Below, piece by piece: positions 30,427-42,031 of a DNA stretch of 64,000 nt (positions are counted from its first letter, which is position 1; every line of letters starts with the position of its first letter). The position numbers and the translations under genes are program-made. This stretch comes from an uncultured Kordiimonas sp. Its GTDB lineage: Bacteria; Pseudomonadota; Alphaproteobacteria; Sphingomonadales; Kordiimonadaceae. The stretch is taken from NCBI GenBank assembly GCA_947500295.1, contig CANMRM010000002.1, positions 620,001-684,000 on the forward strand, given 5' to 3'. The notes below the pieces were generated by a model that saw nothing but the letters and a program-made list of their open reading frames with translations, was not told the origin of the DNA and searched no databases.

Positions 30427-31329
30427 TTAAACACCCTTCAGCAGGCATATACCCGTTAAAAAGGCGTGATTTCCACCCACAGAAAGTGACTGAACCCCTT
30501 CCATTGCCAGCGCGCGGGAATACTTGTGGATCAGGGCTTCACTGCCCACAAGCACAATGTCTTCAATAGCGTTCATTGCCTTGCAAACGGCTAGAATTTC
30601 CCGACCGATGAGCATGCCTGAGAGGTAGGAAGCGCGTGAGCGGCAAGCCAAATCACCAAGCAACGCGTCTGCTCTAATGGAAAAAAGTGCGTTCAAAAGC
30701 CCGGCTTCCGAGCGGCTGGCTTCCACGCCGAGAAGAAAGCTCGCCTCATCAAAGTCGCTGTCCTCAACCAACCTGCCGATGGCACTGCTGTTACGAATAA
30801 GGGCAAACATCTCGCCCGTCATGAAAGTCGTGAGTGACACTATTTTCCCGTTTTTGAATTCACACCATTTGCTGTGCGTACCCGGCAGACAAACCAGAGC
30901 GTTTTCGAGGTTGAGCGTGTCCATTGCCCCAAATATCTGGACCTCTTCACCACGCATCACGTCATTACAGCCAAACATGTTGTTACCGCAAACGCCGGGC
31001 ATAACCTGAATATCGAGGTTTAGATTATTTTCGATAGGTATCGATTGGTGATTCAAGTCCTTAAGAGAAACGGGGCACGGCAGATACGGCGTCTCTCGCC
31101 ATCCGTTCCGGCTTCCAATCGTTCCGCTCATCACCACCGGTAAAGAGCCGTGCTCTTCAAGCCAGTTGCCACAATTATTCATCAGAACGTCAACGAACCG
31201 ACCTTCCGGAACCTGCATCACACCTTCCTCCGTGCTGGTTTGAGCCAACACTGCCCCGGTTTCATCCACCAGAAAGGCTCGAAATGTACTGGAACCCCAG
31301 TCGATCGCAATGGCCGAGGCGTTAGCCAT
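30427..31329 (-). CDS. dgoK: 2-dehydro-3-deoxygalactonokinase
   Basis: DgoK phosphorylates 2-keto-3-deoxygalactonate in the De Ley-Doudoroff pathway. The 300-residue protein opens with IAIDWGSSTFRAFLVD, the phosphate-binding start of this kinase family. It also has VVMSGTIGSRNGWRE, CLPGTHSKWCEF and TFMTGEMFALI, all characteristic. The start overlaps the stop of the SDR gene by one base (TAATG), so the two are coupled. The paired aldolase gene lies 10 kb away at 41402 within the same locus. Confidence 0.95.
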   Translation of the reverse strand: MANASAIAIDWGSSTFRAFLVDETGAVLAQTSTEEGVMQVPEGRFVDVLMNNCGNWLEEHGSLPVVMSGTIGSRNGWRETPYLPCPVSLKDLNHQSIPIENNLNLDIQVMPGVCGNNMFGCNDVMRGEEVQIFGAMDTLNLENALVCLPGTHSKWCEFKNGKIVSLTTFMTGEMFALIRNSSAIGRLVEDSDFDEASFLLGVEASRSEAGLLNALFSIRADALLGDLACRSRASYLSGMLIGREILAVCKAMNAIEDIVLVGSEALIHKYSRALAMEGVQSLSVGGNHAFLTGICLLKGV

Positions 31330-32090
31330 TAAACGCGCCCGCCATCCACAATCAGTGACTGACCCGTGATCATCCCGGACGCATCCGAGGCCAGAAACAG
31401 GGCTGAATTTGCAACATCTTCTTCAGCAACAGTCCGTTTCAGAGACTGTTGCGCCAAACACTCTTCAATGGCTTCCTCGCTGGCCCACAAGTCACGTTGC
31501 CGATCGGTCAAGACCCACCCGGGCACAAGAACGTTGGCTCTGATATTGTGGGGGCCAAGCTCTCGGGCAAGCGCTTTTGTCAGACCAACTATGCCCGCTT
31601 TGGATGTGACATAAGACGCATAGCCGGCAAGTCCGAGAATGGCGGAATTTGACCCCAGATTGATAATGCTGCCGCCGCCTTTTTTCATGTCGTCCAGGCA
31701 CGCCTGCACTGTAAAAAAATGGGGTCGAAGGTTTGTTGCAAGCGCATTATCCCAATCCTCGGCACTATAGTCTTCCACATCATGCCGGTCGTCCCGCGCG
31801 GCATTGTTGATGAGAACCTCAATTGGTCCAAAACGGCTTCTGGCCTCATTCACGGCCTGCTTCAAGGCCTCCACGTCACGCACATCACATTGAATAAACA
31901 ATGGCCTGGCACCGGTTTGCCGTTCGACCGAGTTGCAAACCTCCTTCGCGGGATCAGCAGACAAGGACACAAACGCCACCCTGGCACCCTGCGTTGCAAA
32001 GGCAGACACAAATGTTGCGCCGATACCGGATCCACCCCCGGTGATAAATACGGTCTTGCCTGACAAATCTTCGTAAACTGGATACGTCAT
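31329..32090 (-). CDS. SDR family galactose 1-dehydrogenase (probable)
   Basis: This 253-residue short-chain dehydrogenase has TGGGSGIG at 17-24 (NAD(P) binding), NNAARDDRH near 95, Ser in LGSNSA, and the catalytic YASYVTSKAG. The segment NNAARDDRHDVEDY is close to that of known bacterial D-galactose 1-dehydrogenases, and the neighbouring dgoK and lactonase support that. It would oxidise D-galactose to galactonolactone. L-arabinose or D-fucose could also be accepted. The gene is divergent from the lactonase gene across an intergenic region with the shared operator motif. Confidence 0.85.
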   Translation of the reverse strand: MTYPVYEDLSGKTVFITGGGSGIGATFVSAFATQGARVAFVSLSADPAKEVCNSVERQTGARPLFIQCDVRDVEALKQAVNEARSRFGPIEVLINNAARDDRHDVEDYSAEDWDNALATNLRPHFFTVQACLDDMKKGGGSIINLGSNSAILGLAGYASYVTSKAGIVGLTKALARELGPHNIRANVLVPGWVLTDRQRDLWASEEAIEECLAQQSLKRTVAEEDVANSALFLASDASGMITGQSLIVDGGRV

Positions 32091-32188: not shown

Positions 32189-32205
32189 ATCATATATATC
32201 ATAAT
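32189..32205 (+). promoter_or_regulatory. Putative operator, site 1 (galactoside locus)
   Basis: ATCATATATATCATAAT contains the 14-mer TCATATAWATVATA shared with sites at 36198 and 41332. It lies between the divergent SDR and lactonase genes, about 100 and 70 bases from their starts. I infer a binding site for the FadR-type regulator encoded at 33216. Confidence 0.55.
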
Positions 32206-32272: not shown

Positions 32273-33211
32273 ATGGGCACCGAGCCGAGAACAAAAATGA
32301 CCCCAAAAGCTAAACTTACTGAAGAAATCGCAGTCTCGAATTTGCTCGGAGAAGGCATTCAGTGGCGACATGAAGACCAGTCCCTTTGGTGGACTGATAT
32401 TTTGGCTCAAAAACTCTATCGTTATGATTTGGACGGAGCGAATGTTCGCACATGGGACATGCCCGAACCACTCGGGTCCTTTGCATTCACCAGTGACCCT
32501 GATGTGATCGTGGCGGCGTTTGCAAGCGGGTTTGCCATGTTTGGCCTGAGGACCTGTTCGACATCATGGATTTCGAGGCCTACTTTTTTACCCGGAGAGG
32601 GCCGTTTCAATGATGGCAGAGCGGACCGGCAGGGGCGATTTTGGTCAGGAACCATGATGGCAGACCCGGAAGGAATTGACCCCGCTGTCGGTCGTCTGTT
32701 CCGCCTTGATCTCGATGGACAAGTCAGCGTCCATGAAACAAACATAAATATTTCCAATGGTTTATGCTGGAGCCCTGACAGCTCAAACCTCTATTTTGCC
32801 GATTCATTAAAGGGCGAAATATATCGCTATGCCTTCGACGCAAAATCTGGAAATTGCAGGCAACGTACCGTATTTGCAGAAGCACCAACCGGCGGATCAC
32901 CCGACGGTGCAGCCGTAGACGCATACGGAAATCTTTGGAGTGCCCAGTGGGGCCTGGGCGAAATTCATGTATATACAAAAGAGGGTGAACTGACCGGCGC
33001 CATCACGGTTCCCGCCAGCCAGCCGACCTGTGTCGCTTTCGGAGGAGACAACATGGACATGCTGTTCGTTTCTTCGGCCAAAGATGGACTCTCTGACATC
33101 GAATTGGCCAAACAACCTTCTGCTGGCAACGTGTTTGTGTATAAGACCAACACAAAAGGCATGCCCGAAAACAGATTCATGGGTTCGATGGCCGTTTTGC
33201 AAGAGGAATGA
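32273..33211 (+). CDS. SMP-30/gluconolactonase family lactonase (galactonolactonase role)
   Basis: The 312-residue six-bladed beta-propeller belongs to the SMP-30/regucalcin family of metal-dependent sugar lactonases. Conserved pieces are LLGEGIQW (metal Glu), RFNDGRADRQGRFWSGTM, INISNGLCWSPD and GGSPDGAAVDAYGNLW (metal Asp). In this locus it should open D-galactono-lactone to galactonate. The start may be ATG 32273 or ATG 32297. The second gives the more typical short N-terminus, and neither has a strong ribosome-binding site. It is followed four bases later by the regulator gene. Confidence 0.87.
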   Translation: MGTEPRTKMTPKAKLTEEIAVSNLLGEGIQWRHEDQSLWWTDILAQKLYRYDLDGANVRTWDMPEPLGSFAFTSDPDVIVAAFASGFAMFGLRTCSTSWISRPTFLPGEGRFNDGRADRQGRFWSGTMMADPEGIDPAVGRLFRLDLDGQVSVHETNINISNGLCWSPDSSNLYFADSLKGEIYRYAFDAKSGNCRQRTVFAEAPTGGSPDGAAVDAYGNLWSAQWGLGEIHVYTKEGELTGAITVPASQPTCVAFGGDNMDMLFVSSAKDGLSDIELAKQPSAGNVFVYKTNTKGMPENRFMGSMAVLQEE

Positions 33212-33215
33212 AAAG

Positions 33216-33929
33216 ATGGTTGTAGCCTCACAAAGCTTAACCCACCAGATTGTTAATGAACTGGGGCTCTCCATTGTCCAGGGAAAGTATGATGGCAACA
33301 ATCCCTTCCCCATTGAAGCTGATCTTTGTGAGCAATTTGGCGTAAGCCGCAGCGTCCTGCGGGAAGCCGTGAAAATGCTGACGTCAAAAGGGCTGTTGCG
33401 AGCGCGGCCGCGACAGGGAACATGGGTGCAACCTGAGCATTCCTGGAATCTGCTGGACCCGGATGTGCTGCGCTGGTTACTGGACCGCAAGTTTTCCATC
33501 GACTTGTTGTGCGATTTTACCGAGATACGCATGGCAATTGAACCGCAGGCCGCAGCCTTTGCTGCCGTAAGGGCTTCAGAGGAAGAAAAAAAGTCGATAG
33601 CGGATGCGCTTGACAGGATGCGCGCAGCCGAGCGCGGCGACGATGACGCATTGCAATCGGATATCGCCTTTCACGTGGCTGTTCTTGAAGCAGGAGGCAA
33701 CAGGTTTTTCAGCCAGTTGAAAGATCTGGTTGAAACCGCTCTTCGGATCAGCATTCGGCTGACCAACCAGTACAAAGGGGTTGCCCTGGCAAGTGTAGAC
33801 GACCACCGCGCCGTCTATGATGCGATCGCAGCCGGCGATGCAGATCAGGCAAAAGCGCATTCAACTGCCTTGATTGAGGAAGCGTACGAGCTTATCCGGC
33901 ACGCCAAACACAAGGGCAGCAATGACTAA
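33216..33929 (+). CDS. FadR/GntR family transcriptional regulator
   Basis: The 237-residue protein has an N-terminal GntR winged helix (about 10-75, with EADLCEQFGVSRSVLREAVKML) and a C-terminal all-helical FCD ligand domain with the metal-type residues Asp, His and His spaced as in DgoR/UxuR-like proteins. I infer control of the galactoside locus, with galactonate or its keto-deoxy product as effector. ATG 33216 follows AGAGGA by nine bases and the lactonase stop by four. Its stop overlaps that of convergent GH36 by four bases. The three matching motifs at 32189, 36198 and 41332 are its likely targets. Confidence 0.9.
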   Translation: MVVASQSLTHQIVNELGLSIVQGKYDGNNPFPIEADLCEQFGVSRSVLREAVKMLTSKGLLRARPRQGTWVQPEHSWNLLDPDVLRWLLDRKFSIDLLCDFTEIRMAIEPQAAAFAAVRASEEEKKSIADALDRMRAAERGDDDALQSDIAFHVAVLEAGGNRFFSQLKDLVETALRISIRLTNQYKGVALASVDDHRAVYDAIAAGDADQAKAHSTALIEEAYELIRHAKHKGSND

Positions 33930-36061
33930 CCTGAACGCCCAGCTTCAAGTTGAAAGATCAAGGCTGCTTCGGGCCACATGGGGGGCAATTGCAGACCTGC
34001 ATTCATCAGCAGTTCTCCGCTGAACGACCGGCCTTTTAGGTGATCCAGTTTGTCGAGCTGGATGCCTTTGTTGGTGAGCGGCCAAATTACATCCAGTCCA
34101 TATTGCATCTTTGGGTCCAGACCTGCCAATCGCAGCACCTCTGGTGACGTGTCCCTGCGGGTGCTGGTCTGAGTGTAGGAAAACAGCGCTTCAGACTTAT
34201 CCGCTGCCACAATCCCGAATGCCGCCGCATGAACAGCGCCGTCAAGGCGAACCAAATTCCCGTCATGGATAAGAGACCGGTGCTTTTTGTGGAGAGCTAT
34301 AGCCTGTCTCAAGACCTTCTCCTCTTCGGCGGTTAACTCTTCGAGGTCCATTTCCATGCCCATGTGGCCGAAAAAGGCAGTGGCTGTCCGCAGTTCCATT
34401 GACAGGGTGCGGCCTGTAATATGGCAGACACGCGGCCCAACATGCGCACCCATCACATCGCTCGGCAGAAAAACTGATGCACCACGCTGGATCTCCAGCC
34501 GGTCAAGAGCATCATTGCTGTCGGACGTCCAGATACGGTCGGCATGAGCCAGGACGCCGTAGTCTGCGCGCGCGCCGCCCGAAGAACAGCTTTCTATTTC
34601 CACGCCAGGATGCCGCAGACGCAGTTTACCCAGAAGTTCATACAGGGCCCTCGTCTGGTCATGAATGGATGCACGCCCCTTGCTGCCCGGATGGTTTATA
34701 TCCCTGTTCATGTCCCATTTCAGGTAACGAATATTCAACTCAGCAAGCAGGCTGTCGAGCCGTTCAAACAGATACTCGCGGACCTCATCTCTCGTCAGGT
34801 CGAGAACGAGTTGGTTGCGGTAGGGAATTTGTGTTGTCCCGTCAGCGGCCAGAACCCAATCCGGGTGACTGCGATACAGGTCGCTGTCCGGATTGACCAT
34901 TTCAGGCTCCACCCACAAACCGAATTCCATTCCAAGTTTGTTGACGTGCGAGACAAGCGGCGCCAAACCAGCAGGATAAACCTCCGTGTCGACAAACCAG
35001 TCTCCGAGCCCGGCGGCGTCGCCGCGCCGCTTCGAAAACCAGCCGTCGTCCAGAATGAAACGCTCGGCCCCCAGGCTCGCCGCCTTATCTGCCAGAATTT
35101 TCAGCCGCTCAGGATTGTGGTCAAAGTAAACCGCTTCCCACGTGTTGTAGTGCACCGGGCGTGGCTTTTCGCGAACGCTTTCGCGCAAAAGCCGGTTTCG
35201 GACATACGAATGAAAATTTTGAGACAATCCGGAAAAGCCGCTGTTGGAAAACGTTCCATATACCCACGGCGTTTCATAATATTGCCCCTCCTCCATCCGG
35301 CATTCGCCGGGTAACAATCGTTCGCTCAGCTGAACAAGCGTGCGACCGTCGCTCAGGCGCTCGGAAACAAGCTGGTGGTTGCCACTCCACCCCAGATGAA
35401 ACCCAAAAACAGCGCCCGCTTGCTCGCTGGCGTCTTTTGCGTGCAACAAAATACCGGGGAAACTTGCATGAGAGGTTCGGCCTCGCAGGTTTTCACGAAC
35501 ATAGGCACCGGTCCCAAGGTCTTGGCGGCTGGCCTGGAATTCCATGGCCCATTTTCCATCGAAACTGGTGACCTGCTGAACATAATCCGGAAGCTGAATG
35601 GTTGCTGCGCAGCATTTGTTTACATAAAGCGGCGACTGACCGTTGTTTTCAAGCGAATGACAAAGCCTTACCATGTCGGTTTCAGCGCACCATTCTATAT
35701 ACAGCGTCATTGCAATCTGATGCGTTTGGTCTGCACCTCGCAAGACAGCACCCGTTGCTGACTGTGATACAACTTCAAACTTTGTTGGATTGGCGTCCCA
35801 TGCATGGCCACTGCGATGAACTTCCAGCCCCGGTGTTCCGACGAAGCCCGAAGCCAGGGTCGGACATGTGGAAATGGGGACTTCTATTGAAGCGGTTCCC
35901 TGGGCAGGTGTGCGTAGCAACACATCGCTTAACAGGCAGGCGTCTGCTTGTTCCAGCCTGGCGCCCCAGTAAAGAACAGTCGGCACACCCCCACCAACAC
36001 CAAAGACCAGGCTCGAGTTTCGACCGGTAAACTGAATAGTAGACCTGTCATCAGGACCCAT
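33926..36061 (-). CDS. GH36 alpha-galactosidase
   Basis: This 711-residue enzyme hydrolyses terminal alpha-galactosides such as melibiose, raffinose or floridoside. The catalytic nucleophile is the Asp in RYLKWDMNRD and the acid/base is the Asp in WTSDSNDALDR. The N-terminal beta-sandwich, the TIM barrel with RFILDDGWF and the C-terminal domain are all present, full length for GH36. There is no signal peptide, so it acts on imported sugar. I chose ATG 36061, with GGAG about eight bases upstream, over a TTG at 36097. It is divergent from GH42 across operator site 2. Confidence 0.94.
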   Translation of the reverse strand: MGPDDRSTIQFTGRNSSLVFGVGGGVPTVLYWGARLEQADACLLSDVLLRTPAQGTASIEVPISTCPTLASGFVGTPGLEVHRSGHAWDANPTKFEVVSQSATGAVLRGADQTHQIAMTLYIEWCAETDMVRLCHSLENNGQSPLYVNKCCAATIQLPDYVQQVTSFDGKWAMEFQASRQDLGTGAYVRENLRGRTSHASFPGILLHAKDASEQAGAVFGFHLGWSGNHQLVSERLSDGRTLVQLSERLLPGECRMEEGQYYETPWVYGTFSNSGFSGLSQNFHSYVRNRLLRESVREKPRPVHYNTWEAVYFDHNPERLKILADKAASLGAERFILDDGWFSKRRGDAAGLGDWFVDTEVYPAGLAPLVSHVNKLGMEFGLWVEPEMVNPDSDLYRSHPDWVLAADGTTQIPYRNQLVLDLTRDEVREYLFERLDSLLAELNIRYLKWDMNRDINHPGSKGRASIHDQTRALYELLGKLRLRHPGVEIESCSSGGARADYGVLAHADRIWTSDSNDALDRLEIQRGASVFLPSDVMGAHVGPRVCHITGRTLSMELRTATAFFGHMGMEMDLEELTAEEEKVLRQAIALHKKHRSLIHDGNLVRLDGAVHAAAFGIVAADKSEALFSYTQTSTRRDTSPEVLRLAGLDPKMQYGLDVIWPLTNKGIQLDKLDHLKGRSFSGELLMNAGLQLPPMWPEAALIFQLEAGRSG

Positions 36062-36197
36062 CGAAAATCTCCGTTCCTCATACCCGGCTTCAGGCAATGC
36101 CTCAATACAGCATCCGATTTCTTTTGTCTGATCCCAATCTGACGACTAGGGTCAAGCAAGGCAAGCCACCATAAAATCTTGCTAGCCAATCGCTATA

Positions 36198-36214
36198 GTC
36201 ATATAAATAATATT
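36198..36214 (+). promoter_or_regulatory. Putative operator, site 2 (galactoside locus)
   Basis: GTCATATAAATAATATT carries the shared 14-mer TCATATAWATVATA. It sits in the divergent GH36/GH42 intergenic region, about 40 bases before the GH42 start. Confidence 0.55.
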
Positions 36215-36254
36215 ATATATGCGATGGAAGTCTACTCCGCTCAAAAGGAAAGTC

Positions 36255-38222
36255 ATGCTAGGCGTTTGTTATTATCCGGAACACTGGCCTGAAGACCTTT
36301 GGCATCAAGACGCCCGGGAAATGAAAGCACTAGGGCTGGAGTTCGTCCGGATTGGAGAATTCGCCTGGTCAAGGATAGAACCAAGCCGGAACAATTTCCG
36401 TTTGGAGTGGCTGGACCGCGCAATAGAAACACTGGCAGCAGCTGGTTTGAAAATTGTGTTCGGCACCCCGACCGCGACGCCGCCGAAATGGTTGATAGAT
36501 GAAAACCCCGATATCCTGCCCATGTCACCCGATGGAAAAACCATCCGCGGATTTGGTTCGAGGCGTCACTATGATTTCTCCAGCGGAACTTATTTGCATG
36601 AGGCCGAGCGAATAACCGAAATTCTGGCCCGGCGATATGGAGAGCATGATGCTATTGTGGGATGGCAGACAGACAACGAGCTATGTTGCCATGACACCGC
36701 GATAAGTGGCTCGCCTGCTGCCCTGGCAGAATTCAGAAAGTGGTGCCAACAGACGTATGGTTCCGTCAACGTGCTTAACGAGGCATGGGGCAATGTTTTC
36801 TGGTCGATGGAGTACGCGTCCTTTGACGCAATAGAGCTTCCTTTTGGGGCTGTCACCGAAACCAACCCTGCTCACCAACTTGCTTATCGCCGCTTTGCTT
36901 CAGACCAGGTCCTGTATTTTCACCGCCAGATGGCGAAAATCATTCGCCAACACGCACCCGGCAAATGGGTCACGCACAACTTCATCCCGAAAGAAGACTT
37001 GTATGTCGACGCTTACGGGCTGGGTGAAGATCTCGACATTGCGTCCTATGACAATTACCCGCTGGGCCGCTCGGACATTGCCTTCGCCGATGAACCAGCC
37101 AGCCTGATGCAACGCTACATGCGGACAGGCCACCCAGACTTCGCAAGCTTCTATCATGACACAACCCGCAGTTTTGCCGGTGGGGCCTATTGGGTGATGG
37201 AACAGCAGCCGGGCCCTGTCAACTGGGCTCCGCACAACCCCCGTCCCGCACCTGGTATGGTGCGTTTCTGGTCACTCGAAGCGTTTGCACACGGCGCGGA
37301 ATGCGTCAGCTATTTCAGATGGCGGCAAGTCCCCTACGCGCAGGAGCAAATGCATGCGGGCCTCAAGCGATCCGACAACAGCAAGGCAACAGCGTGGGCT
37401 GAGGTGGAACAAGTGCACCGGGAGATTGAAACACTTGCCTTGCAAGACCAGCACAAACAGAAAGCGGACATTGCCATAGTGACCGACGTAGAGGCGTTAT
37501 GGGTTTCAGACATCGAACGACAGGGTGCAGGCTATGATTTCAAGAAAGTTGAATTCGAGTATTACTCGGCCCTCAGGCAGCTGGGGCTATCCGTCGATTT
37601 CATCAGCAAAAATATGTCGCTGGATCATTATAAAATCATAGTGGTGCCGTGCCTGCCAATTGTTGACACATCTTTTGTAGAACGGTGTAAGGAGGCTGGG
37701 GCAACGCTGGTATTCGGACCCCGATCAGGGGCCAAAACAGCGGAGTTCTCCATCCCTGGGAACCTTGCCCCTGGTGCCCTCCAAAGTCTTGTTAATGTTA
37801 AGATTTCATCCGTCGAAACACTGAGGCCCGATTGCAGGGTTCCCTTGAATTGGGATGGCAAGACTTACGAAGCTCATTCCTGGTGCGAAGAATTACAGGT
37901 CGGTGATGGCGCAGAGGTTATCGCAACATACGATGACGGCACACCTGCCGCAGCAAAACAAGGCAACGTTTATTATCTGGCGACGTTGAGCTGCGCAGAG
38001 TTTCTGCGCGACTTTCTGGAGCATATCTGTACGCAAGCCGGGCTTGCTGCCAGCAGGCTGCCGCCAGATATGCGGTTATGTCAGCGTGGCAACCTGACGT
38101 TTGCTTTCAATTATGCCGACACACCACAATCGGTTCCCGGTATTGGACAGGAAACATTCATTCTAGGGGGGCCTGTGGTCGGCCCGCGGGATATTGCCGT
38201 CTGGCGATCGGACTGCAACTAA
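36255..38222 (+). CDS. GH42 beta-galactosidase
   Basis: The 655-residue enzyme belongs to the GH42 beta-galactosidases. It opens with MLGVCYYPEHWPED, typical of the family. The acid/base Glu is in GWQTDNELCC near 145 and the nucleophile Glu is in YWVMEQQPGPVNW near 315. A trimerisation domain and a C-terminal beta domain follow. There is no signal peptide, implying an intracellular role on transported galactosides. I chose ATG 36255 (AAGGAA six bases upstream); an ATG at 36219 would add 12 residues. The symporter gene follows 30 bases downstream. Confidence 0.95.
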   Translation: MLGVCYYPEHWPEDLWHQDAREMKALGLEFVRIGEFAWSRIEPSRNNFRLEWLDRAIETLAAAGLKIVFGTPTATPPKWLIDENPDILPMSPDGKTIRGFGSRRHYDFSSGTYLHEAERITEILARRYGEHDAIVGWQTDNELCCHDTAISGSPAALAEFRKWCQQTYGSVNVLNEAWGNVFWSMEYASFDAIELPFGAVTETNPAHQLAYRRFASDQVLYFHRQMAKIIRQHAPGKWVTHNFIPKEDLYVDAYGLGEDLDIASYDNYPLGRSDIAFADEPASLMQRYMRTGHPDFASFYHDTTRSFAGGAYWVMEQQPGPVNWAPHNPRPAPGMVRFWSLEAFAHGAECVSYFRWRQVPYAQEQMHAGLKRSDNSKATAWAEVEQVHREIETLALQDQHKQKADIAIVTDVEALWVSDIERQGAGYDFKKVEFEYYSALRQLGLSVDFISKNMSLDHYKIIVVPCLPIVDTSFVERCKEAGATLVFGPRSGAKTAEFSIPGNLAPGALQSLVNVKISSVETLRPDCRVPLNWDGKTYEAHSWCEELQVGDGAEVIATYDDGTPAAAKQGNVYYLATLSCAEFLRDFLEHICTQAGLAASRLPPDMRLCQRGNLTFAFNYADTPQSVPGIGQETFILGGPVVGPRDIAVWRSDCN

Positions 38223-38252: not shown

Positions 38253-39701
38253 ATGGAATTGCAAACTATTCAGGTGGTTGTGTTCGTCGCTTTTACCGCG
38301 ATTATCGCCTTTGCCACGTACCTGAAATGCAGGGGAACCAGAACAGATTCTGACTCTAACAAAGAGTATTTTCTGGCAGGCGGCGGCCTTTCCTGGATAT
38401 TTGTTGCAGGCTCAATTACGCTTACAAATCTGAGCACCGACCAGCTCGTCGGTATGAATGGCAATCAAATGGCGTTGCTGGCCTGGTGGGAGTTCGCTGC
38501 CGTCGCGGGCCTCATTATTCTCGCAAAAGTGTTCCTGCCAGTCTACTACCGCAACAACTGCACCACGACGACCGAGCTGCTCGAAAAGCGATACAATGAC
38601 CACCATATCAGAGCCACCGTTTCGGTCATGTTCCTGCTCGGTAACATCTTCATCTTTTTGCCAGCGATGCTCTATGGCGGGTCCCTATTCATGCAATCCA
38701 TGTTTGGTGTCGACATCCCCATTATCATCCTTGCTGCCCTTTTTGCTTTTGTCGGTGCTTGCTATGCAATTTTTGGAGGCCTCCGGGCAGTCGCGGTTTC
38801 GGACACCTACAGCGGCATTCTCCTGCTGGGTCTTGGCATGCTGGTGGTTTTTCTGGCTCTTCAAGCCATCAATTTCGACTTTTCCGGCATTCCGGCGGAA
38901 CGGCTGACACTGATCGGTTCAAACGAAAGCCCCATACCGTGGCATACCTTGCTGACCGGCATGATTTTCATCCAGGTTTTCTACTGGAGTACAAACCAGA
39001 CCATTACCCAGCGCGCCATGGCGTCTCCGACGCTAAAGGAAGCGCAAAAAGGTGTGTTTGCTGCGGCGGGCATACGGCTTTTGATCGTGCCGCCGATGAT
39101 TGTGCTGCCCGGTATCGTATCCTACAAACTCTATGGTGACATCGGCGACGCCGCTTACGGCAGGATCGTGAGCGATGTGTTGCCTGTCTGGCTCTCGGGC
39201 GCTTTTGCAGCAGCAATCGCAGCAGCAGTGCTCACCAGTTTCAATAGCATACTGAATTCGTCGACCGCGCTCTATGTGATGGATATTCATGAAAAGTATT
39301 TCAACGACCATCCCGACGTTAAAAAACTCAGTGGATGGGTAACGGCTGTTTTTGTGCTCCTGGCACTTGCGCTGGTGCCGCTCTACCAACAGGCAGAAAG
39401 CATTATCAACCTCGTCCAGCAGCTCTATGGGCTGCTCAGTATGCCCATCCTTTCAACTTTCCTCGTGGGACTATTGTTCAAGGAGGTGGATCCACGTGCG
39501 ATGATCGCAGCGGTGATTTCCGGTACGGTACTCTATGGCGTCTTTTCGTTCGTATGGTCACCCTTCCATTACATCCATCTGATGTTCATCACCCTCATTT
39601 TCTGCGTTGTCCTGGCTCTGGTCGTCAACACGCTCATCTTTAGCAGGCGAGCGCAGTATATTGGCCTGACACCTCAGGTGCCGGAACCTGCCGCTGAGTA
39701 G
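38253..39701 (+). CDS. Sodium:solute symporter (SSS family), probable galactoside/galactose importer
   Basis: The 482-residue protein has about 12-13 membrane segments and the SSS-family regions GGGLSWIFVAGSITLTNLSTDQLVGMNG and FYWSTNQTITQRAM, close to sugar-transporting members such as SglT/vSGLT. Ligand identity is inferred from its place directly after GH42. Na+ coupling fits a saline habitat. It has its own GGGGAG ribosome-binding site and is probably cotranscribed with GH42. The 51 bases that follow contain a weak GTATTG/CAATAC inverted repeat before the convergent glpD gene. Confidence 0.9.
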   Translation: MELQTIQVVVFVAFTAIIAFATYLKCRGTRTDSDSNKEYFLAGGGLSWIFVAGSITLTNLSTDQLVGMNGNQMALLAWWEFAAVAGLIILAKVFLPVYYRNNCTTTTELLEKRYNDHHIRATVSVMFLLGNIFIFLPAMLYGGSLFMQSMFGVDIPIIILAALFAFVGACYAIFGGLRAVAVSDTYSGILLLGLGMLVVFLALQAINFDFSGIPAERLTLIGSNESPIPWHTLLTGMIFIQVFYWSTNQTITQRAMASPTLKEAQKGVFAAAGIRLLIVPPMIVLPGIVSYKLYGDIGDAAYGRIVSDVLPVWLSGAFAAAIAAAVLTSFNSILNSSTALYVMDIHEKYFNDHPDVKKLSGWVTAVFVLLALALVPLYQQAESIINLVQQLYGLLSMPILSTFLVGLLFKEVDPRAMIAAVISGTVLYGVFSFVWSPFHYIHLMFITLIFCVVLALVVNTLIFSRRAQYIGLTPQVPEPAAE

Positions 39702-39752
39702 GTTTATTTGAGGCACAAGCTGTATTGAGCGCTGCAATACTGCAGGTTTTCT

Positions 39753-41258
39753 CTAGGCACCCATCCAGGTGGCAAGGGCTGACCGTTCGGCATCCGACAT
39801 ATGCAGACCACGCTTGGTCCGGCGCCACAGCACGTCTTCGGCCGTGTGCGCCCATTCGACTTCCTTGAGATAGTCGACCTCTCTCTCATAAAGGCCGGCG
39901 CCGAAGTCCCGCCCCATATCAGTGAGAGACGCAGCGCTACCGATCATGTCCTTGATCCGCGTACCGTAGGCACAGGCATACCTCTCCGCCAGGGCTTCCG
40001 GCAGCCAGGGATATGTTTCTTGGGTGGTGTCAATAAAGCCCGACAAAGCATGCTCCGGGCTTTCCCGGCCGGGCAGGTCACCCCCTGGTAGCGGAGAGCC
40101 GTCTGTCCAGGGCCCGCAGTCGTAGGTCGTATAGGGCTCGAGTTTTTCCAGCACTTCTTCAGCAAGGCGACGATAGGTTGTTACCTTGCCGCCATAGATG
40201 CTGAGAAGCGGTGCAGCACCGCCAGGAGCGTCGAGCGCAAGCACATAGTCTCGTGTTGCCTTGGATGCACTTTCCGCGCCGTCGTCATACAGTGGACGTA
40301 CACCTGAATAGTGCCAAATGACCTTTTCGGGCAGGATTGTGGTCTTGAAATACTCGGATGTTGCAGCACATAGATACTCGATTTCCTGTTCGTCTGCCGC
40401 AGCCGTATAAGGGTCACCCTCAAAAGGCGTATCCGTTGTCCCAATGAGTGTAAAATCCCCTTCATAGGGGATAGAAAATATCACCCGGCCATCCGTGTTC
40501 TGGAATGTATAGGCGCGGTCGTGATCGTATAGCTTCGGCACCACAATATGGCTGCCTTTTACAAGCCGAACCGACCCTTCGTTCTTTTGCCCCGCATTGC
40601 AGCTGTTAAGGGTTTTATCGACCCAGGGTCCACCTGCGTTCACAAGCATTTTTGCTTCAACCGTTTCCACCGTTCCCGTGTCGGTTTTAACCGAGACCTG
40701 CCACCTGTCTCCGTTTCTCTCCGCGCCGATGAAGGTGTGGCGGGTCAGTATCTCTGCGCCCAACTCTTTAGCACCCAGAGCATTGGCAACAACAAGTCGT
40801 GCGTCATCCACCCAGCAATCGGAATATTCGAAACCGGTGGTCAGCGCATCAGAAAGCGGTCCACCAGCTGAATGCTTACGCAGGTTCAGACGCTTTGTCG
40901 GTGGCAAAAGCTTGCGGCCACCTATGTGATCATAAAGGAACAGGCCAAGGCGAAGAATGAATGCCGGTCGCAGCCCTTTGTGGTGCGGCAGAACAAATCG
41001 CAGCGGCGTAATGAGGTGTGGTGCTACTTTCCAGAGGCGTTCCCTTTCCAGCAGCGACTCGCGAACCAGTCGAAACTCGTAGTTCTCAAGATACCGAAGG
41101 CCTCCATGAATAAGTTTTGAACTGGAAGAAGACGTCGCGCCAGCCAGGTCTCCCTGTTCCACAAGCAATACGCTTAGCCCGCGGCCCGCGGCATCACGCG
41201 CCACTCCCGCGCCGTTAACGCCGCCCCCAACTATGAATAAGTCAACTTTGCCAAGCAT
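39753..41258 (-). CDS. glpD: Aerobic glycerol-3-phosphate dehydrogenase
   Basis: GlpD oxidises sn-glycerol-3-phosphate to dihydroxyacetone phosphate and passes electrons to quinone at the inner membrane. The 501-residue flavoprotein has the FAD motif IVGGGVNGAGVARDA near 10, SSSSSKLIHGGLRYL near 45 (substrate), YGGKVTTYR near 355 and the C-terminal DAO domain, full length for GlpD. It stands inside a galactoside locus and shares a divergent promoter region, including the operator-like motif, with dgoA. No glpK or glpF is in the window. Confidence 0.95.
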   Translation of the reverse strand: MLGKVDLFIVGGGVNGAGVARDAAGRGLSVLLVEQGDLAGATSSSSSKLIHGGLRYLENYEFRLVRESLLERERLWKVAPHLITPLRFVLPHHKGLRPAFILRLGLFLYDHIGGRKLLPPTKRLNLRKHSAGGPLSDALTTGFEYSDCWVDDARLVVANALGAKELGAEILTRHTFIGAERNGDRWQVSVKTDTGTVETVEAKMLVNAGGPWVDKTLNSCNAGQKNEGSVRLVKGSHIVVPKLYDHDRAYTFQNTDGRVIFSIPYEGDFTLIGTTDTPFEGDPYTAAADEQEIEYLCAATSEYFKTTILPEKVIWHYSGVRPLYDDGAESASKATRDYVLALDAPGGAAPLLSIYGGKVTTYRRLAEEVLEKLEPYTTYDCGPWTDGSPLPGGDLPGRESPEHALSGFIDTTQETYPWLPEALAERYACAYGTRIKDMIGSAASLTDMGRDFGAGLYEREVDYLKEVEWAHTAEDVLWRRTKRGLHMSDAERSALATWMGA

Positions 41259-41331
41259 AAGGAAACGCTATCCAATACTCCGTCGTTCACCACCGTGAAT
41301 GATGGCCTCAAAACCACTGTACCCGGTCTCT

Positions 41332-41348
41332 GATATCATTTATATGAT
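41332..41348 (-). promoter_or_regulatory. Putative operator, site 3 (galactoside locus)
   Basis: Read on the minus strand, ATCATATAAATGATATC contains the shared 14-mer TCATATAWATVATA. Here it is also a near-palindrome with arms TATCAT and ATGATA around four bases. It sits between divergent glpD and dgoA. Confidence 0.6.
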
Positions 41349-41401
41349 AATTATGACAGCTTGAATCAATGAGCTTGCCCGCTTGAAAAAAGAGTACACA
41401 G

Positions 41402-42031
41402 ATGATGCTCAACCTTGAGAAAAATGGACGCCTCGTTGCAATTTTGCGAGGGGTTCAGCCTGAGGAAGTCATCGACATAGCAAGTAGCTTGATCGATGCA
41501 GGCATCACCATGATTGAAGTGCCGCTCAATTCTCCGCGCCCCTATCAATCAATTGAAAAACTGGCGAGTAGATTTGGCGAAAATGCGCTTCTGGGGGCCG
41601 GCACCGTCCTAAGTGAAGAGCAAGTGAATTCGGTCTCTGATGCCGGTGGAAAATTCATTGTTTCACCAAACAGCAACCCTGCTGTGATTAGGCGCACAAA
41701 AGAAGCCGGGCTGGTTTCCATGCCCGGTTTTGCGACCGCCACCGAGGCCTTTAGTGCTTTGACGGCGGGAGCAGATGCCCTGAAACTATTTCCGGCCGGC
41801 GCGCAGGGTGCAGCAACACTCAAGGCATTGAAGGCAGTTTTGCCGCCAGAGGCGCCCGTGCTCGCCGTCGGCGGCGTCGACACGGAAAACATGGAAATGT
41901 TCGTCAAAGCCGGCGCTGATGGGTTTGGACTTGGCAGTGACCTCTACAAGCCCGGAGCTACAGCGACAGATGTAGCTGCAACTGCAGCCCGATATATAAA
42001 AGTCGTTAACGCGCTCTACACACCGCAATAG
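41402..42031 (+). CDS. dgoA: 2-dehydro-3-deoxy-6-phosphogalactonate aldolase
   Basis: DgoA splits KDPGal to pyruvate and glyceraldehyde-3-phosphate. The 209-residue class I aldolase has RLVAILRGV, the catalytic Glu in IEVPLNSP, GAGTVLS, and the Schiff-base Lys in ALKLFPA near 128, with VGGVD and GFGLGSDLYKPG at the phosphate-binding end. The last motif and RLVAILRG favour DgoA over Eda (KDPG aldolase), as does the neighbourhood with dgoK. Two tandem ATG codons (41402, 41405) could start it. A terminator follows at 42079. Confidence 0.94.
   Translation: MMLNLEKNGRLVAILRGVQPEEVIDIASSLIDAGITMIEVPLNSPRPYQSIEKLASRFGENALLGAGTVLSEEQVNSVSDAGGKFIVSPNSNPAVIRRTKEAGLVSMPGFATATEAFSALTAGADALKLFPAGAQGAATLKALKAVLPPEAPVLAVGGVDTENMEMFVKAGADGFGLGSDLYKPGATATDVAATAARYIKVVNALYTPQ

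Follow-up and report, generated by a model that had tools for sequence, protein, structure and literature searches.

Why does a gene for glycerol-3-phosphate dehydrogenase stand within a gene cluster for the use of galactosides? The question is raised by a 64,000-nucleotide stretch of DNA from an uncultured Kordiimonas sp. (the window, which here means the whole of that stretch). The original prediction was that alpha- and beta-galactosidases acting on galactosyl-glycerols would free both galactose and glycerol, and that glpD is present for the glycerol half. The genes of the cluster are arranged in the order DgoK, SDR, SMP-30 lactonase, GntR/FCD regulator, GH36, GH42, SSS symporter, GlpD and DgoA, and three copies of a putative operator lie between them (window coordinates):

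30427-31329, minus strand: DgoK, 2-keto-3-deoxygalactonate kinase (PF05035, 298 bits)
31329-32090, minus strand: SDR dehydrogenase, from its context a probable D-galactose 1-dehydrogenase (PF13561)
32190-32203, plus strand: operator copy 1 (TCATATATATCATA), SDR/SMP-30 intergenic region, perfect motif match
32273-33211, plus strand: SMP-30 family lactonase, probable galactonolactonase (PF08450, 252 bits)
33210-33929, plus strand: GntR/FCD regulator, DgoR-like by context (PF00392 and PF07729); frame taken from 33210, start approximate
33926-36097, minus strand: GH36 alpha-galactosidase (PF02065, 425 bits)
36199-36212, plus strand: operator copy 2 (TCATATAAATAATA), GH36/GH42 intergenic region, perfect motif match
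36219-38222, plus strand: GH42 beta-galactosidase (PF02449, 446 bits)
38253-39701, plus strand: SSS sodium symporter (TIGR00813, 216 bits, cut-off 184)
39753-41258, minus strand: GlpD, aerobic glycerol-3-phosphate dehydrogenase, 501 aa (NF008899 and 2qcu)
41334-41349, no strand assigned: operator copy 3, palindrome TATCATTTATATGATA, glpD/dgoA gap, perfect motif match
41402-42031, plus strand: DgoA, KDPGal aldolase (NF006600, 279 bits, cut-off 207)

The earlier identification of GlpD, and of its divergent gap with dgoA as the seat of a putative operator, was confirmed by profile searches and by the palindrome, respectively. NF008899 scores the GlpD reading frame at 733 bits against a curated NCBIfam cut-off of 360, covering residues 4-499, and the best solved relative, the aerobic glycerol-3-phosphate dehydrogenase 2qcu, matches residues 5-499 (E 4e-148), which amounts to a full-length match. 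No other GlpD was found in the 4.27-Mb genome, and this one presumably must also serve ordinary glycerol metabolism. Two other matches in the genome were short and weak and were not taken as GlpD. The only FGGY-type match of the genome (C6:136154) is the glycerol kinase GlpK (TIGR01311, 686 bits, cut-off 590); it lies on a contig other than that of the galactoside cluster, as expected from the original remark that glpK is absent here, and GlpK is thus not a linked gene in this genome.

Several of the remaining parts would belong to a De Ley-Doudoroff route. A KDGal kinase and a KDPGal aldolase are both present (PF05035, NF006600), and the catalytic domains of GH36 and GH42 each score over the Pfam cut-off; the nearest solved relative of the GH36 is AgaB (4fnq). 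The best NCBIfam match of the SDR is a D-xylose 1-dehydrogenase, at 272 bits below the cut-off of 400. A search of the window and of three other stretches of this genome gave no galactonate dehydratase of the IlvD type; the type was found in relatives (L163, L217), and in one of them, G017, an IlvD/Edd-type gene after dgoA (L163:10423-12204) is a candidate galactonate dehydratase. The GH42 reading frame opens at 36219, only 7 bases past operator copy 2. More probably, translation begins at the in-frame ATG at 36255: a ribosome-site-like AAAAGGAAA precedes this codon, and the L166 homologue starts at the same point. No signal peptide was seen by eye on GH36 or GH42, so cleavage would be cytoplasmic. 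Among solved structures, the symporter is nearest to the sodium/glucose cotransporter 2xq2 (E 4e-48), which we take to be the Vibrio vSGLT. At the positions that we assume to contact sugar in vSGLT (N64, Q69, E88, S91, Y263, N260, K294 and Q428), N64, Q69, E88, Y263 and Q428 are the same, S91 and N260 differ, and K294 falls at a gap.

The glpD and dgoA genes diverge from a 143-bp gap holding the perfect palindrome TATCATTTATATGATA, a pattern (TATCAT-N4-ATGATA) without a second perfect copy in the genome. The motif TCATATANATNATA has exactly three perfect matches in 4.27 Mb, one in each divergent intergenic region of the cluster, and did not occur in 100 shuffles of the window; since it was derived from its own three sites, this rarity is partly circular, and the independent test comes from conservation in relatives. 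Of 58 relatives (59 genomes with the present one included), eight carry the divergent dgoA/glpD pair. In seven of them the locus further comprises, in whole or in part, the set of SSS, GH42, GH36, GntR, SMP-30 and SDR, within the limits of the contigs, and the eighth genome (G022) has short contigs. The glpD/dgoA site is kept in all eight relatives, perfectly in seven and with one mismatch in G014. The 16-base palindrome is thus present in 9/9 genomes, identical in eight and one base off in G014, with variable flanks. The GH36/GH42 site is perfect in five relatives and has one mismatch in G040, and the SDR/SMP-30 site is perfect in the five relatives whose stretch extends to that gap. Each of the three sites retains its own small variant across the relatives. 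Three loci with De Ley-Doudoroff genes, lacking GH36 and GH42 (L168, L169, L172), show only two-mismatch versions, in the SDR/IlvD gap. A scan of 39650-41450 for promoters gave no sigma-70-like site.

At the level of sequence, then, glpD is part of the galactoside regulon: a regulator of GntR/FCD DgoR type lies in the cluster, and one putative operator is found at all of its divergent promoter regions. The operator probably belongs to this regulator, and we infer that the GntR protein binds it. The original prediction also suggested looking for glpK and glpF under the same operator; no match with at most one mismatch was found upstream of glpK or near the sole MIP (aquaporin/GlpF-type) gene (C1:979808). 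One-mismatch matches do occur elsewhere in the genome; the one at C6:137891 sits about 1 kb beyond glpK and not ahead of it. As glpK lacks the operator, it would be expressed by some other route. The cluster of G040, a genome listed with 6% contamination, includes a gene for a TonB-dependent receptor (L164:5650-8644) with a one-mismatch operator just upstream of its start; the receptor is a candidate outer-membrane entry route.

The linkage of glycerol genes to GH36 was then compared across genomes. In five dgoA loci without GH36 or GH42 (L168, L169, L170, L172, L173) no GlpD was found, and Kordiimonas laminariae (G016) gave no GH36 match. In a class-wide sample, GH36 was found at E 1e-60 or better in 18 of 385 genomes, this one included, and GlpD lay in the examined locus in 2 of the 17 GH36 loci of other genomes (L187, L200). 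An order-wide sample yielded GH36 at E 1e-100 or better in 125 of 396 genomes, which form two score groups, a high one of 60 whose GH36 is closely related to the present one and a low one of 65 with a more distant GH36; the cut between them was set after the scores had been seen, when GlpD positions were known for part of the genomes and loci only. A distance of at most 10 kb between GlpD and GH36 was seen in 36 of 60 high-score genomes (34 of 58 without the present genome and G014, both of which are counted), vs none of 20 low-score genomes, taken as every third in score order from 65. Fisher's test gives p 6e-7 for this difference, a statistic that ignores shared descent. G014 was placed in the high-score group by identity, though its GH36 pieces score only ~432 bits each. 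In 25 of 28 cases under 1 kb, GlpD and GH36 are on the same strand and separated by 15-76 bp.

In the other 24 high-score genomes, the 10 kb on either side of GH36 hold no GlpD. By distances read by eye, GlpK lies ~1.7 kb from GH36 in five of these and at 10-11 kb in three, and the other 16 have neither. In L225 and four related genomes, GlpK replaces GlpD beside GH36. Both GlpD and GlpK are linked in four loci (L200, L217, L059, L076), the last two of which came from a GlpD-seeded search and stand outside the 36/60 count, being included in the trees and the locus table. Nearly all of the 60 high-score genomes could make use of free glycerol, since a GlpK was found in 59 of them. Besides the linked copy, three genomes (G014, G054, G605) carry a second, unlinked GlpD. 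Five loci (L171, L185, L186, L228, L229) combine SSS, GH36 and GH42 but have neither GlpD nor GlpK; the galactosidase set therefore does not require linked glycerol genes. A glycoside hydrolase is thus co-located with a glycerol gene by the linkage counts, and would be co-regulated with it by the shared operator.

Both trees built from these proteins were quick ones with one kind of support value. In the GlpD tree (56 of 57 rows; L051 was dropped), the linked state needs five changes, all forced by well-supported branches, and the linked GlpDs do not form one clade. Kordiimonas-type linked GlpDs cluster with ordinary Kordiimonas GlpDs, the linked GlpD of G054 groups with an unlinked one of its genus, and that of G027 with the unlinked GlpD of G020. 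Ten rows first labelled as unlinked from short stretches showed no GH36 in stretches of ~19 kb. The GH36 tree (66 of 67 rows; G719 was dropped because no GH36 frame was recognised, and G014 was excluded since its GH36 is broken) needs nine changes of the linkage label, seven of them forced, in two distant parts of the tree. These patterns point to local GlpDs having been recruited to GH36 loci more than once, and the link between glpD and galactosides seems to have arisen independently in other bacterial lineages. Some of the changes may be losses. The G014 cluster (L161:2511-10514) has both galactosidase genes in fragments, with stops in GH36 and one stop in the DgoA match; its GlpD and SSS frames are open, and its second GlpD lies elsewhere in the genome. 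The broken genes reflect either decay or assembly error.

The loci differ in how galactose would be used. De Ley-Doudoroff genes occur in the GlpD-linked loci of Kordiimonas and in L166, L200 and L217, and the Leloir genes GalT-GalK in the GlpD-linked loci L187, L063/L066, L210-L216 and L220. In L187, an SSS gene faces GH36-GlpD-GalT-GalK. L200 comprises ABC, GH36, SDR, DgoK, DgoA, SMP-30, GH42, GlpD and GlpK. L217 (G450) has SSS-GlpK-aldolase-esterase on one strand and GH36-GlpD-GH42-IlvD-SDR-DgoK-GntR on the other, and so holds every proposed pathway step except a lactonase, none being seen in the examined stretch. In the Aliiroseovarius loci L059 and L076, GlpD-GlpK and a UgpC-type ATPase lie opposite a group made up of ABC-importer genes, GH36 and IlvD; L059 also has SDR and DgoK, and GH42 is absent from the examined stretches of both. 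A GlpR-like DeoR regulator adjoins GH36 in L221 (7267-8064, 327 bits), L222 (7740-8543, 319 bits) and L219 (9350-10141, 316 bits), each scoring just below the curated cut-off of 331, and L222 has no GlpD nearby. In some GH36-GlpD-GalT-GalK loci, an AraC-type regulator and a TonB-dependent receptor are found between GH36 and SSS (L212:11404-15490, L214:3024-6988).

If galactose and glycerol were released together, glycerol genes would be expected beside alpha-galactosidases whatever the galactose pathway, transporter or regulator. Of single causes that would account for all of these linkage patterns, the simplest is glycerol as a second product. The galactose-plus-glycerol interpretation of the original prediction is thereby supported by comparison of genomes (36/60 vs 0/20). 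We put the probability that the cluster is a regulon for the use of galactosyl-glycerols at roughly three in four. A small galactosyl-glycerol would be imported by the SSS symporter, after which GH36 would remove alpha-linked and GH42 beta-linked galactose in the cytoplasm. Galactose would pass through the dehydrogenase, the lactonase, a dehydratase encoded outside the window, DgoK and DgoA to pyruvate and glyceraldehyde-3-phosphate, and glycerol would be phosphorylated by the unlinked GlpK, after which GlpD would oxidise the product to DHAP. Acting at the one operator, the GntR/FCD regulator probably keeps all three divergent promoters repressed until an acid of the galactose pathway, such as galactonate, appears. 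With a sensor of a galactose acid in control of glpD, GlpD would be induced by the galactose half of the substrate.

A clue to the substrate may lie beside glpK. The neighbour of SapC-glpK on the opposite strand encodes a predicted exported alpha/beta hydrolase (the block with SapC and glpK is L178:6032-9859; G000:C6), with a signal peptide by eye, Pfam PETase and PAF-AH matches, and weak matches to known structures of PET hydrolases, PAF acetylhydrolases, cutinases and an esterase. Ten aligned members share without variation a GYSMG serine motif together with a histidine and nearby aspartates, residues that would form a hydrolase triad. No copy of the esterase is present in the window. Homologues lie within the galactosidase loci of G054, G231, G326, G674, G752 and G450. 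In the locus table (47 of 48 loci; L162 was dropped), the esterase accompanies 6 of 13 loci with SSS, GH36 and GH42, none of 22 without GH42, and none of 12 with ABC and GH42. The seven SSS+GH42 loci without it are six of the Kordiimonas type and L171, and L185, L186, L228 and L229 carry the esterase yet no GlpD or GlpK. It stands beside SapC-GlpK in six of six Kordiimonas genomes (this one, G003, G013, G018, G014 and G017), and the SapC-glpK-hydrolase block is the same in five Kordiimonas relatives bearing the galactoside cluster. In G005 and G010, which have no galactosidase cluster, GlpK adjoins GlpD and no esterase is found there; the GlpK genes of G040 (on a 7.9-kb contig), G022 and G054 have no such neighbour either. 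The Kordiimonas pattern of esterase and glpK may partly reflect shared descent, and the esterase could instead remove acetyl groups from sugars.

DGDG consists of alpha-Gal-beta-Gal-glycerol with two fatty acids, and the company of an esterase with an alpha- and a beta-galactosidase fits a diet of galactolipids. The likeliest substrates of the version with GH36 and GH42, named tentatively and at slightly under even odds, are the di- and monogalactosyl-glycerol head groups of algal DGDG and MGDG. Galactolipids are among the main components of chloroplast membranes (PMC8333865). It is conceivable, and we advance it with more reserve, that marine Alphaproteobacteria have repeatedly assembled a system for scavenging galactolipids from an exported esterase, SSS, GH36 with GH42, GlpK/GlpD and a GntR operator on glpD. 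An esterase of the PAF-acetylhydrolase/cutinase kind would strip the fatty acids from algal MGDG and DGDG, SSS would take in the remaining mono- or digalactosyl-glycerol, and GH36 and GH42 would cut the galactoses in turn. GlpK and GlpD would burn the glycerol, with glpD under the GntR operator that senses a galactose acid, and the GH36-only loci would be the floridoside form of the same plan.

The strongest alternative is a form of the preferred explanation, keeping galactose and glycerol as products and changing the glycoside. Floridoside is a main storage carbohydrate of red algae (PMC8703398), and the substrate here might be alpha-galactosyl-glycerol (floridoside or isofloridoside), with GH42 serving other beta-galactosides. 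Among the GlpD-linked loci of the locus table that are not of the Kordiimonas type, 14 of 17 show GH36 without GH42 in the examined stretch. According to PMC8509150, the reverse reaction of GH36 enzymes can yield isofloridoside from galactose plus glycerol, so glycerol suits this family as a partner. Set against this, GH36 and GH42 have a common divergent promoter region and operator in the present lineage, and the esterase family accompanies GH42-bearing SSS loci and glpK. The esterase pattern thus favours galactolipid head groups here and floridoside for the GH36-only loci; as an account of the present cluster, we regard floridoside as possible, though less likely than not.

Two further readings dispense with free glycerol. 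The glycoside might yield glycerol-3-phosphate directly, for example as galactosyl-glycerol-phosphate from a phosphoglycolipid, in which case GlpD would suffice without GlpK. This would suit the unlinked GlpK of the present cluster and of the Leloir clusters, but GlpK accompanies GlpD in four loci and replaces it in L225 and the four related genomes, and the symporter is nearest to a transporter of neutral sugars; we consider it unlikely. Alternatively, a glycerol-3-phosphate cycle of GpsA and GlpD might reoxidise the NAD(P)H of the galactose dehydrogenase, with no glycerol in the substrate. An SDR dehydrogenase probably begins the pathway, and the Kordiimonas-type cluster has GlpD without GlpK, both in favour of such an electron shuttle. 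However, the linkage of GlpD extends to GalT-GalK clusters, in which no gene for a galactose dehydrogenase was seen, L200, L217, L225, L059 and L076 have a linked GlpK, and the dgoA loci that have neither GH36 nor GH42 have no GlpD either, which makes the shuttle quite unlikely. That a housekeeping glpD lies here by an accident of gene order, outside the metabolism of the sugar, is very improbable. In its favour, this is the sole GlpD and five SSS+GH36+GH42 loci have none, but the shared operator leaves a footprint in nine genomes, the linkage occurs in several lineages, and the linked genomes G014, G054 and G605 keep another GlpD elsewhere.

The use of galactosyl-glycerols, our preferred reading, can be set beside several known systems. 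With the De Ley-Doudoroff (dgo) regulon and its GntR-type repressor, the cluster shares SDR, lactonase, DgoK, DgoA and a GntR/FCD regulator; it differs by the addition of galactosidases, a symporter and glpD, and in that the dehydratase is not in the window. GH36 alpha-galactosidase operons of the Rhizobium melA/agp type have an ABC transporter. Such operons likewise combine GH36, an importer and galactose genes, and ABC versions are common in the class sample. The importer here is instead of the SSS type and glpD has the operator in common with the other genes; GlpD occurs in just 1 of 12 ABC+GH42 loci. Should the reading be correct, candidate users could be picked out by a simple genome marker, an operon that joins GH36 to GlpD or GlpK.

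Co-location of a glycosyl-glycerol hydrolase with genes that take up the freed glycerol has a parallel in the cyanobacterial degradation of glucosylglycerol, where gghA lies with glpK and, in a figure of some strains, with glpD as well (PMC6753628). That system handles glucose and recycles the cell's own osmolyte, whereas galactose from foreign food would be used here, and the account in PMC6753628 includes no SSS transporter or De Ley-Doudoroff genes. In the titles and abstract openings of the matches listed in our literature search, no bacterial gene set for the use of galactosyl-glycerols was described. A further precedent is the proposal of Egel (cited in PMC8333865) on the E. coli lac operon, a galactosidase operon whose supposed natural substrates would be galactosylglycerols derived from galactolipids. 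The present cluster differs from lac in having glpD under the common operator and in containing an alpha-galactosidase. To our knowledge, there is no glycerol gene in the lac operon. Our comparison suggests that such gene sets eat algal compounds of galactose and glycerol, and if this is true, Egel's link between galactosidases and galactolipids would become directly testable in bacteria whose regulon includes the glycerol half.
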